A stretch of 64,000 bases of DNA, taken from assembly GCF_000013045.1 (NCBI RefSeq), contig NC_007677.1, positions 2,170,001 through 2,234,000 on the forward strand. Direction: 5' to 3'. Position 1 is the first letter of the stretch; each line of letters begins with the position of its first letter. Shown in pieces: positions 27,687 to 31,268 of the stretch. This DNA is from Salinibacter ruber DSM 13855. GTDB taxonomy: Bacteria; Bacteroidota; Rhodothermia; Rhodothermales; Salinibacteraceae. The notes beneath the pieces are model-generated. The model was not told the DNA's origin, did not search any database, and saw nothing but the letters and a program-made list of their open reading frames with translations. A program made the translations under genes and the position numbers.

Positions 27687-29327
27687 CTAAGATCGAACCT
27701 CAGGCTCTTCGGGGGTCGACTCCGCTTCCTGCTGCTCTTCGGAGGGGCTTTGGGGAATCTCGTCCTGTTCTTCGACCTCTTCGTCACCGCCTTCTTCTGT
27801 TGCCTCGCTGTCTCCGTCGGCCTGCTCGGGCTCGTTCGGGGCCGGCCCGTCGACGACCGTCTCCTCCCCGTCCGCGTCGGGGGCCGGTGCGCCGGCCTCG
27901 GGCGGCTCCTCGTCCGCATCGCCCGGGCCCTTCGAATCGGCGGACTCGGTCGCGCCGGCAGAAGACGCGGAGGACTCGGTCGACGCCTCGCTGGGGGTGG
28001 TGCCGTCCGTGTCGGCCGCCTCCGCCGTCTGCACAGACTCCACCGTGAATCGCCCCTGTCGGATCGACTCGATGATGCCCGGCCCCTTCTCGAATTCAGT
28101 CTCGATGATCTCCAGCACCTGCTTGGCGGTGTCGCGGTCGAGGTCGGCACGCCGGGCCAGGGCGTCCGCCGACAGTTCGAGCACGGCCTTTCCGGTGTCG
28201 CACCCGATCCGCTTCAGCTTCCCGATGGTTTCTTCCGTAAGTTCATCGCCAAACTGCTCGATGTCAATGTCTTCCTCGTCCGCCGGGATTTCGCGGTAGA
28301 CATCGATTTCGTATCCGGTCAACTGCGAGGCAAGCTTAATGTTGACGCCGCGCTTGCCGATGGCCTGGCTGACCTCGTCGGCCGGCACCTCCACGCGGGC
28401 CCGTGGCGGGTCCTCGTCCTGATTCAACGAAACGTTCGTCGGCTCGGCCGGCGACAGTGCCCGAGCAATCAGCTCCTGGGGGTCGTCGGACCACTGCATC
28501 ACGTCGATGTTCTCGTCGGAGAGCTCCCGGACGACGGCGTTGATCCGGACGCCCTTGACGCCCACGCATGCCCCTACCGGATCCACCTTCTCGTCGTGAC
28601 TCTCGACCGCCACCTTGGCGCGGTCGCCAGGAATCCGGGCCACCTTCTTGATCTCGACGATGCCGTCGTGCACCTCCGGCACCTCGACTTCGAAGAGGCG
28701 CTCCATGAACACCGGGGAGGTGCGGCTGACCACCACCTGCGGGTCGCTCCCCGCATCGCGCCGCACTTCCTTGACGACGGTCCGAAGCATGTTGCCCTTC
28801 CGGTAGTGATCCCCCGGAATTTGTTCGTCGCGGGGCAGCACGAGTTCGGTGTCCTCGTGCATCAGGAGCGTCTCGTGGCGACGGACCTGGTAAATCTCCC
28901 CGACGACGATGTCCCCAATGAGCTCCGTGTACTCCTGGTAGACCTGCTCCTTCTCGATGTCACGGATCCGCTGGCGAAAGGTCTGCCGCGCAGTCATCAC
29001 GGCCCGGCGCCCAAACTCGCTGACGTCCAGCCCCCCCGCCACCTCGTCGCCAACCGCAAAGCCGTCGTCAATCTTCTTGGCCTCGGACTCCTTAATCTCG
29101 GTCACCGGGTCTTCCACCTCCCAGTCCCCAACGACCTCTTGAATGTGGAGAATCTGGATGTCCCCCTGCTTCGGATTGAAAATGATCTCGAAGGCCTCGT
29201 CCGACCCGTACCGCTTGCGAAGCATCGCGCGGAACACGTCCTCCACGATAATCTGGAGCGTGTCCCGGTCCATGTCTTTGGACCGGGCTATTTCCCCAAA
29301 TGAGGAGATCAGGTCTTCGCTTCGCAT
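27687..29327 (-). CDS. nusA: Transcription termination/antitermination factor NusA with acidic tail
   Basis: RNA-polymerase-associated elongation factor, 546 aa from the ATG at 29327 (MRSEDLISSFGEIARSKDMD). The NusA N-terminal domain is followed by an S1 domain (~135-200) and two KH domains with IGACVGVKGVRINAVVREL and IGKRGVNIKLASQLTGYEID. A helix-hairpin-helix-like segment (SADALARRADLDRDTAKQVL) follows. The last ~120 residues are low-complexity acidic (PEQADGDSEATEEGGDEE). Second gene of the rimP operon, 63 bp after rimP. Confidence 0.96.
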   Translation of the reverse strand: MRSEDLISSFGEIARSKDMDRDTLQIIVEDVFRAMLRKRYGSDEAFEIIFNPKQGDIQILHIQEVVGDWEVEDPVTEIKESEAKKIDDGFAVGDEVAGGLDVSEFGRRAVMTARQTFRQRIRDIEKEQVYQEYTELIGDIVVGEIYQVRRHETLLMHEDTELVLPRDEQIPGDHYRKGNMLRTVVKEVRRDAGSDPQVVVSRTSPVFMERLFEVEVPEVHDGIVEIKKVARIPGDRAKVAVESHDEKVDPVGACVGVKGVRINAVVRELSDENIDVMQWSDDPQELIARALSPAEPTNVSLNQDEDPPRARVEVPADEVSQAIGKRGVNIKLASQLTGYEIDVYREIPADEEDIDIEQFGDELTEETIGKLKRIGCDTGKAVLELSADALARRADLDRDTAKQVLEIIETEFEKGPGIIESIRQGRFTVESVQTAEAADTDGTTPSEASTESSASSAGATESADSKGPGDADEEPPEAGAPAPDADGEETVVDGPAPNEPEQADGDSEATEEGGDEEVEEQDEIPQSPSEEQQEAESTPEEPEVRS

Positions 29328-29390
29328 AATCCGTCTCGTCCTGTGAAGAAGTAAGTTCCGCGTGGCCCGCCGCGTGTGTCCCAATTCCCC

Positions 29391-29858
29391 TTACCAGGGC
29401 AGCTCGATCCGAGCCTGGGTGATTGTCGTGTATGGCAGCTGAAGGCGCTCCGCAGAGGGCAGCTCCAGTTCAATCTCTTCGTCGTCCGCGTCGGTCAAGT
29501 CCCCCACCACGATCTCCTCGTCGCCGTCGCTTTCAAATCGTACACGCAAGGTGCGGCCAACGTTCTTCCGATACTGCGCCGGCATCGTCAAAGGACGCTT
29601 AATCCCGGGCGAGGAAAGCTCCAGCTTGTAGCTTCCATCCACCACGTCCTCCACGTCAAGCAGAAACCCGATCTCTTTGCTAATGAGGGCGAGGTCATCG
29701 TGGCCCACCTCCTCCTCGGAGTCAATGTACACTTCCACGACCCGTGTCCCCTTGTGCCCCCGCACCTCCACGTCCACCAGAAAGTAGTCGGTTCCGACGA
29801 TCACCTCTTCGGTCAGTCCGGAAACCCGGTCGGCAAGATGTTGTTGCGTGGGGTTCAC
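29391..29858 (-). CDS. rimP: Ribosome maturation factor RimP (non-ATG start)
   Basis: Assembly factor for the 30S subunit. It has 155 aa if started at the GTG at 29858 (NPTQQHLADRVSGL). A TTG at 29873 would add five residues (MTTAF); the nearest in-frame ATG is far upstream at 30044 and codes a Cys/Arg-rich, non-RimP stretch. Family motifs are YFLVDVEVRGHKGTRVVEVYID and the C-terminal SSPGIKRPL. First gene of the rimP-nusA-infB-rbfA-ribF-rpsO-pnp operon. Its promoter should lie between the prfB terminator (29993) and the start codon. Confidence 0.88.
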   Translation of the reverse strand: MNPTQQHLADRVSGLTEEVIVGTDYFLVDVEVRGHKGTRVVEVYIDSEEEVGHDDLALISKEIGFLLDVEDVVDGSYKLELSSPGIKRPLTMPAQYRKNVGRTLRVRFESDGDEEIVVGDLTDADDEEIELELPSAERLQLPYTTITQARIELPW

Positions 29859-29992
29859 AAATGCAGTTGTCAAGCGTCCAGAAGCACCTAGTGCAAAAAA
29901 GCGCCCGGCCCGACAGGCGGGACGAACGCCATGTGCGGCCCGGGATCGCCGAACCGCCTCTCCAATTCTCGGATGCCCGCAGGCATCAGTAC

Positions 29993-30018
29993 AAAAAGGT
30001 GGCGTCGGAGGCCACCTT
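29993..30018 (-). terminator. Intrinsic terminator of prfB
   Basis: On the minus strand AAGGTGGC, a 7-base loop and GCCACCTT form a perfect 8-bp stem (30011-30018 with 29996-30003), followed at once by a run of T. It lies 113 bp after the prfB stop and separates prfB from the rimP operon. Confidence 0.85.
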
Positions 30019-30130
30019 CTCGCGCTGTTTTCCCAGCGGACCACGAAATACGCGTGTCAAAACGGTGTAACGTTGGGCCCCGCCCGATGTTTCTACGCGT
30101 CCGCCCCTCCAGCAGCTGCGCTGCGCGCCC

Positions 30131-31268
30131 CTACACTGGAGACGTGTCCCGGTCTTTCTTGCCTTTGAGGAGATAGGCCTTGATGAACGGGTCCAGCTCC
30201 CCTTCCAGCACGGCCTCCGCGTCGTTCCGCTTGGTGTCCGTCCGGTGGTCGTTCACCATCTTGTAGGGGTGGAGCACGTACGAGCGGATCTGACTCCCCC
30301 ATTCGATGCTTTTCTTCGAACTCTCAAGCCGCTCTTTTTCTTCTTCTTTGAGCTCCCGCTCCGCCTGGTAGATGCGGCTCTTGAGCATCTCTCGGGCGCG
30401 ACGACGGTTCTGGTGCTGGCTCCGCTCCTGGGTGCACGCGGCCCGGACGGTGGTCTCCTCGCCGTTGGACAGGGTGCCGGTCCAGATCAAACGGACGCCC
30501 GTTTCCACCTTGTTGACGTGCTGCCCCCCCTTGCCGCCGGACCGGAAGGTCTGGAGTTCTATTTCGCCCTCACTCAAGTCCACCCCAATGCTGTCGTCAA
30601 CCTCGGGGTAGACAAAGACGCTCGCGAACGAGGTGTGGCGGCGGCTGTCGGCGTCGAACGGGGAGATGCGGACCAGTCGGTGCACGCCGGTTTCGCTTTT
30701 GAGGCGGCCGTAGGCGTGCCGTCCCTGCACATTCAGGGTTGCGCTCTTGATGCCGGCCTCCTCTCCAGGCTGCTGGTGGACGAGTTCCACGTCGTAGTCT
30801 TGGTCCTCGGCCCACCGCATGTACATGCGGAGCAGCATTTCTGCCCAGTCTTGGCTTTCGGTGCCCCCGGCACCCGGGTTGATTTCGACGATGGCGTCTC
30901 GCTCGTCGTCGGGGTCGTCGAGAAGACTTTCCAACTCCAACCGATCGAGCTTCTGTTCGAGCTTTCGCGCCTCCGCGTCGATCTCGTCCGACATGTCTTC
31001 CCCCTCCTCTTCGGAGAGAAGCTGAAGGGTCTCAATGTCCTCGGCCTGCTCCTTGACGTCCTCCCACGCCTCGATCCATTCTTCTTCGCGGGCAATTCGC
31101 TTTTCGATCTCGCGGGCCCGATCCGGGTCGTCCCAAAAGTCGGGGTCCATCCGCTCCTGGTTGAGCTCTTCGACGGTCATGCGGCGACCGTCTACGTCAA
31201 AGATAGCCCCCGAGCGCCTCCACGCGCTCAGCGAGCTGTTCGAGGTCCTCGTCCGAGTACGACTTCAT
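30131..31268 (-). CDS. prfB: Peptide chain release factor 2, with programmed +1 frameshift
   Basis: RF2 releases peptides at UGA and UAA. The coding sequence is join(31268..31200, then 31198..30131) on the minus strand. The 0-frame reads ATG at 31268 for 23 codons to CTT and meets TGA at 31199-31197. Slipping one base continues into the 355-codon frame, 378 aa in total. The site is canonical: an SD-like GGGGGC, then TAT CTT TGA C. In the main frame the RF2 tRNA-mimic SPFDADSRRHTSFASV and the GGQ motif (SGGKGGQHVNKVETG, near residue 247) are intact. Calling the gene from the ATG at 31180 alone loses about 29 N-terminal residues. Its level is likely autoregulated by RF2. Confidence 0.96.
31196..31211 (-). 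promoter_or_regulatory. prfB +1 recoding site
   Basis: Minus-strand GGGGGCTATCTTTGAC. The G-run acts as an internal Shine-Dalgarno three bases before the slippery CTT; the TGA followed by C is a weak stop. This matches the known RF2 autoregulatory site of many bacteria, in which low RF2 causes pausing at UGA and slippage into the full-length frame. Confidence 0.93.

Follow-up and report, generated by a model that had tools for sequence, protein, structure and literature searches.

In E. coli, the prfB gene for release factor 2 (RF2) is subject to a feedback in which a shortage of RF2 slows termination at UGA and so permits the peptidyl-tRNA to slip from CUU to UUU (PMC5009743, PMC13245932). 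The E. coli site reads AGGGGG UAU CUU UGA C, with an upstream reading frame (ORF0) of 24 or 25 codons before the stop and a CCUCC-pairing G-run that ends three nucleotides before CTT (TAT; CTTAGGGGGTATCTTTGACT). A domain-wide survey reports prfB frameshift motifs in 8,164 of 12,753 genomes and calls the three-nucleotide spacing almost universally conserved (PMC12421855). According to work on the Bacteroidia, 523 of 726 genomes of this class carry the prfB frameshift, although their ribosomes rarely use Shine-Dalgarno (SD) sequences, and the site of F. johnsoniae is AGGAGGUAUCUU UGA C (PMC8710568).

Here, we describe an analysis of prfB in Salinibacter ruber, in a 64,000-nucleotide stretch (the window) of the 3,551,823-base contig of a two-contig, 3,587,328-base genome. 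Almost certainly, the site is one of programmed +1 frameshifting in prfB, through which RF2 regulates its own synthesis. It shares with E. coli the gene, the N-terminal place, CTT, TGA, the following C, and a G-run capable of pairing with CCUCC; it differs in an ORF0 of 23 codons, in a G-run ending four nucleotides before CTT, and in the absence of SD enrichment at start codons of the sampled genome. All motif elements named in the domain-wide survey are present in S. ruber, the spacing departing by one nucleotide (PMC12421855). Like the Bacteroidia, S. ruber keeps a recoding site with an anti-SD-pairing element despite little SD initiation, but Salinibacter belongs to another class, its ribosomal protein bS21 lacks the tyrosine Y54, and its element is displaced by one nucleotide.

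Results

A split prfB gene in the window

An initial annotation of this DNA had read RF2 as split by a canonical programmed +1 frameshift, in which an ATG at 31268 opens 23 codons, a TGA follows directly after TAT CTT, a GGGGG run stands just 5' of the site, and a slip past one T joins the long RF2 frame. Every one of these elements was found on the minus strand (Table 1), and the anatomy, the identity of the product and its conservation all agree with a programmed frameshift. Strictly, the site is not canonical, in that four nucleotides and not the three of E. coli separate the G-run from CTT. The 3' end of ORF0 reads GTG GAG GCG CTC GGG GGC TAT CTT TGA C, and the native slip site is GGGGGCTATCTTTGA.

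Table 1. Features of the S. ruber prfB locus (window coordinates)
Feature	Position	Strand	Remarks
prfB ORF0	31197..31268	-	ATG (31268-31266) and 22 further sense codons, 23 in total, then TGA; peptide MKSYSDEDLEQLAERVEALGGYL
GGGGG, internal Shine-Dalgarno-like element	31207..31211	-	last G at -5 from CTT; spacer CTAT
TAT, E-site codon with CTT in the P site	31203..31205	-	read from sequence
CTT TGA C: slippery leucine codon, RF2-specific stop, then C	31196..31202	-	CTT 31202-31200; TGA 31199-31197; C 31196
prfB +1-frame part	30131..31198	-	355 residues and stop; entry at GAC after slippage to TTT
ATG for a caller without recoding	31178..31180	-	349 residues, 29 short
Second GGAGG within ORF0, 5' of GGGGG	31217..31221	-	gene offset 47; in part of congeners only

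When CTTT is read as one step, ORF0 is joined to the +1 frame and a 378-residue protein results. This product contains the PCRF and RF-1 domains and scores 473.7 bits against the RF2 model TIGR00020 (cut-off 370), and the RF1 models score under their cut-offs. Motif statistics in the window were rejected as proof of recoding, the short motif being too frequent by chance: GGNGGNNNNCTTTGA occurs once against 0.15 expected, with at least one occurrence in 15 of 100 shuffles, and for CTTTGA alone there are 26 occurrences where 16.8 would be expected. The case therefore rests on place in prfB, frame and conservation.

The second GGAGG of ORF0, ten nucleotides 5' of the G-run, is a possible competitor; a review describes competing SD-like elements as normally absent just upstream of the prfB G-run (PMC5009743). 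Downstream of prfB, two minus-strand open reading frames resemble, by eye, rimP (29391-30044) and nusA (27687-29384).

Conservation of the site and its loss in fused genes

In the order of S. ruber, 114 genomes were searched and 106 prfB 5' ends examined (one from each of 105 genomes, and that of an additional copy in genome G013), nine genomes being left out because no listed RF2 match reached the N-terminus. CTT-TGA with GG(A/G)GG is found in 90 of these 106 ends and the other 16 read in one frame; these figures count genomes and not independent events, and were obtained without a tree. A CTT requirement had reduced 97 candidate recoding sites to these 90 by dropping seven non-CTT candidates. 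GG(A/G)GG accompanies all 90, which read CTTTGAC in 89 cases and CTTTGAT in one; at a single locus (L134) the contig ends a little 5' of the recoding site. Across the phylum, 198 genomes were searched and 110 examined (18 in the order, 31 in the rest of the class, 61 elsewhere), and since these were mostly the better-scoring ones the phylum share is biased: outside the order, the site is present in all 31 genomes examined within the class, and CTT with a stop in 59 of the 61 examined elsewhere in the phylum.

Altogether 198 loci were aligned, with loose settings and a 35-bit floor, and CTT is followed by a stop in 180 of them (169 TGAC, 2 TGAT, 9 TAA). TAG was the recoding-site stop in none of these 180. 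In 153 heuristically chosen genes of S. ruber (304 kb; the window and loci L211-L222), the commonest stop is TAG (71), ahead of TGA (48) and TAA (34), a predominance that seems odd for a genome of 66% GC. In genome G013 a second RF2-like gene (L210, G013:C34:1049-1699), 45% identical to the query, has a site of its own, GGG AGG CAT CTT TGA C.

The ORF0 peptide is kept in all 22 same-family loci examined for it. Among 19 distinct 69-nucleotide ORF0s of the family, 9, 10 and 17 columns vary at codon positions 1, 2 and 3, respectively, and this third-position excess looks consistent with a translated ORF0. Pairwise codon differences are more often nonsynonymous (1,139) than synonymous (637), which argues against strong amino-acid constraint across its whole length.

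The one-frame genes provide a control. Eight belong to family f45 (all that were examined there), five to f5, two to f1, the family of the S. ruber genome, and one to f6. The stretch that they encode is similar (LRGYLD, LGTYLD or LATYLD, for instance), but in none of the 16 is the slip codon CTT (11 CTC, 3 CTG, 1 CTA, 1 TTA). GG(A/G)GG is present in three of the 16 versus 90 of 90 recoding genes (Fisher p = 3.5e-14, shared ancestry ignored). The slip codon is lost together with the fusion of the frames, and the G-run usually is too, so that it is recoding, and not the encoded residues, that the motif follows. The two fused genes of the S. ruber family (L132 and L133, in genomes G247 and G248) represent a local loss of the switch.

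The G-run in a genome with little Shine-Dalgarno initiation

SD use at start codons was scored in 304 kb of the 3.59 Mb S. ruber genome, on heuristically chosen genes with a GC3 filter that was applied to this genome only. An SD match of at least four bases precedes 7 of 50 unambiguous ATG starts versus 184 of 1,016 internal in-frame ATGs, and a five-base match 2 of 50 versus 65 of 1,016; when 100 kb of E. coli were tested identically, a match was found at 14 of 22 starts versus 35 of 601 internal ATGs. Since the rates at starts are not above those at internal ATGs, SD motifs are unenriched at the sampled S. ruber starts. The suspicion that SD use is sparse here was thus borne out in a partial genome sample, and published S. 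ruber start-site logos agree (PMC3155529). Of 88 recoding genes in the order, 9 have a four-base match at the ORF0 ATG itself, and that of S. ruber has none. The rpsU gene of S. ruber, encoding bS21, carries GGAGG shortly 5' of its TTG start (L122:1459-1491; G000:C1, about 1,478,430-1,478,460), and stands out against the absence of SD enrichment overall; SD autoregulation of rpsU is reported for Flavobacteriales and suggested for Chlorobia, and S. ruber rpsU is similar (PMC9976891).

A G-run kept for recoding in such a genome had been singled out as a contrast, and the contrast is real; it has already been published for the Bacteroidia (PMC8710568), so the observation is not new in kind. The anti-SD sequence of the 16S rRNA was read in a congener. 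The 16S gene of the S. ruber genome itself was not found by sequence queries, and that of a congener (G195) ends in GGATCACCTCCTAAAG, with CCUCC kept. This congener tail agrees with the description of the S. ruber tail, in which the last U is replaced by A and the core is kept (PMC3155529).

It is conceivable, though rather unlikely, that recoding is real and that the G-run is a remnant hardly contributing to it, CTT-TGA-C and TAT being sufficient and the tail of the 30S subunit perhaps unavailable. The lack of SD enrichment at starts is in keeping with this, as is the displacement of the element by one nucleotide in 55 of 90 sites. Work of Naeem and colleagues on F. johnsoniae prfB, which reportedly found that frameshifting was low and depended little on the element, points the same way. 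Low frameshifting efficiency in F. johnsoniae is likewise cited in the domain-wide survey (PMC12421855). Against a remnant stands the near-disappearance of GG(A/G)GG from the fused genes. In addition, S. ruber bS21 has no tyrosine after position 39 and so lacks the Y54 described in F. johnsoniae (PMC9976891), which makes tail sequestration of the exact F. johnsoniae type less likely.

A shifted spacing between the G-run and the slip codon

The register of each site was scored by its best helix, with approximate nearest-neighbour energies. For the GGGGGC of the window, the four-nucleotide register gives -10.2 kcal/mol and a five-pair helix in the usual register -8.5 (approximate energies); both are open to it, so that S. 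ruber itself may pair in either register. At GGAGGC sites the shifted register gives -11.1 versus -1.6 kcal/mol on the same approximate scale, the usual one being unavailable. Scored in this way, the 90 sites of the order divide into 55 shifted and 34 usual ones, plus one with six Gs that fits both. Families f1 (apart from the six-G site), f4, f7, f8, f41, f42, f44 and f46 have shifted sites only, f2 and f3 the usual spacing only, and f5, f40 and f43 are mixed. The six-G site (L138), which belongs to the S. ruber family, is plausibly an intermediate between the two spacings.

No shifted site was found among the 31 of the rest of the class. Elsewhere in the phylum, 17 of 59 sites are shifted by the same score, 13 of them being CGAGGTTAT and one very weak. 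A scan for CTNGGRGGCTATCTTTGAC across 84,980 species genomes returned 58 stretches, of which 49 were verified as RF2 sites; nine failed the check, at least one of them (L254) probably because the stretch stops at the site, its contig being as long as that of genome G249, in which the site was confirmed (L137). Thirteen of the verified sites come from genomes titled outside the Bacteroidota. Two of these encode an RF2 61-66% identical to that of S. ruber and may be misbinned, and the other 11 bear the titles Desulfarculales, Syntrophobacteraceae or Syntrophobacterales, Deltaproteobacteria, Gemmatimonadetes and Methylomirabilis.

Of the order's 90 sites, 73 have TAT before CTT (53 shifted, 19 usual and the six-G site), that is, in 53 of 55 shifted versus 19 of 34 usual sites (p = 3.8e-6, ancestry ignored). 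The four-nucleotide spacer is a lineage variant, a small trait that may or may not affect frameshifting.

The N-terminus of RF2

The ATG at 31180 is the first ATG, GTG or TTG after the upstream stop of the long +1 frame, so that a call without the frameshift yields 349 residues and loses the first 29, the short RF2 against which the initial annotation had warned. That RF2 is actually made from this ATG, the upstream frame being incidental and without recoding, is very improbable, even though the 349-residue frame is intact and has an ATG start. Such a protein would lack 29 residues that are filled in all 16 fused-frame relatives, each of which has an in-frame start upstream of the equivalent N-terminal segment. 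The best matches among solved RF2 chains in the PDB align from query residue 8-9 onward and thus cover the frameshift junction, and the 23-codon ORF0 and CTT-TGA are conserved. In none of the 106 5' ends of the order did a relative start at the downstream ATG without an upstream segment or G-run: the segment is conserved, with the site in 90 and an equivalent one-frame segment in the others. A sequencing error or a recent frameshift mutation, although a one-base difference would give the same split, has a negligible chance and is already refuted by the conserved site, which is present in all 13 same-genus prfB 5' ends fetched (the window counted), from independent assemblies, as well as in those 90 across the order.

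Discussion

The S. ruber prfB site is essentially an ordinary further case of a well-known recoding event, with a small variant in spacing. In the mechanism proposed here, translation would begin at the ATG at 31268 and run through 23 codons as far as CUU, UGA then occupying the A site. When RF2 is plentiful, termination at UGA would release a short peptide; when it is scarce, slow termination would create a pause in which the peptidyl-tRNA could slip from CUU to UUU, and the ribosome would go on to make RF2 from the +1 frame. Pairing of the GGGGG run with the CCUCC tail of 16S rRNA is probable and would strain P-site pairing. Slippage, feedback and pairing are drawn from other bacteria (see also PMC12421855, PMC8710568), and for S. 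ruber the anatomy and conservation of the site argue for the feedback. A role of the G-run in S. ruber frameshifting is likely, although less sure, and the best-pairing register, one nucleotide away from the usual spacing, counts against the standard mechanism, as does the second GGAGG. Removal of the switch is reported to have no obvious fitness cost in F. johnsoniae (PMC8710568) and likewise in P. fluorescens (PMC13245932), so that a benefit of the switch cannot be assumed.

It is possible, if doubtful, that in Salinibacter and related families the prfB element has moved stably to a place one nucleotide further 5' (GG(A/G)GG-N-TAT-CTT-TGA) in the absence of SD initiation, with the near-fixed TAT perhaps compensating and the spacing then being tunable. 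If so, the three-nucleotide spacing would be a tunable feature that sets a lower level of frameshifting, and not a fixed requirement.

For S. ruber, this sets the gene model: RF2 is predicted to be a protein of 378 residues made via recoding, not one of 349 residues from the ATG at 31180. The order to which it belongs, in which usual, shifted and fused prfB genes are mixed, offers a natural series on the weight of the element and of its spacing where SD initiation is absent.
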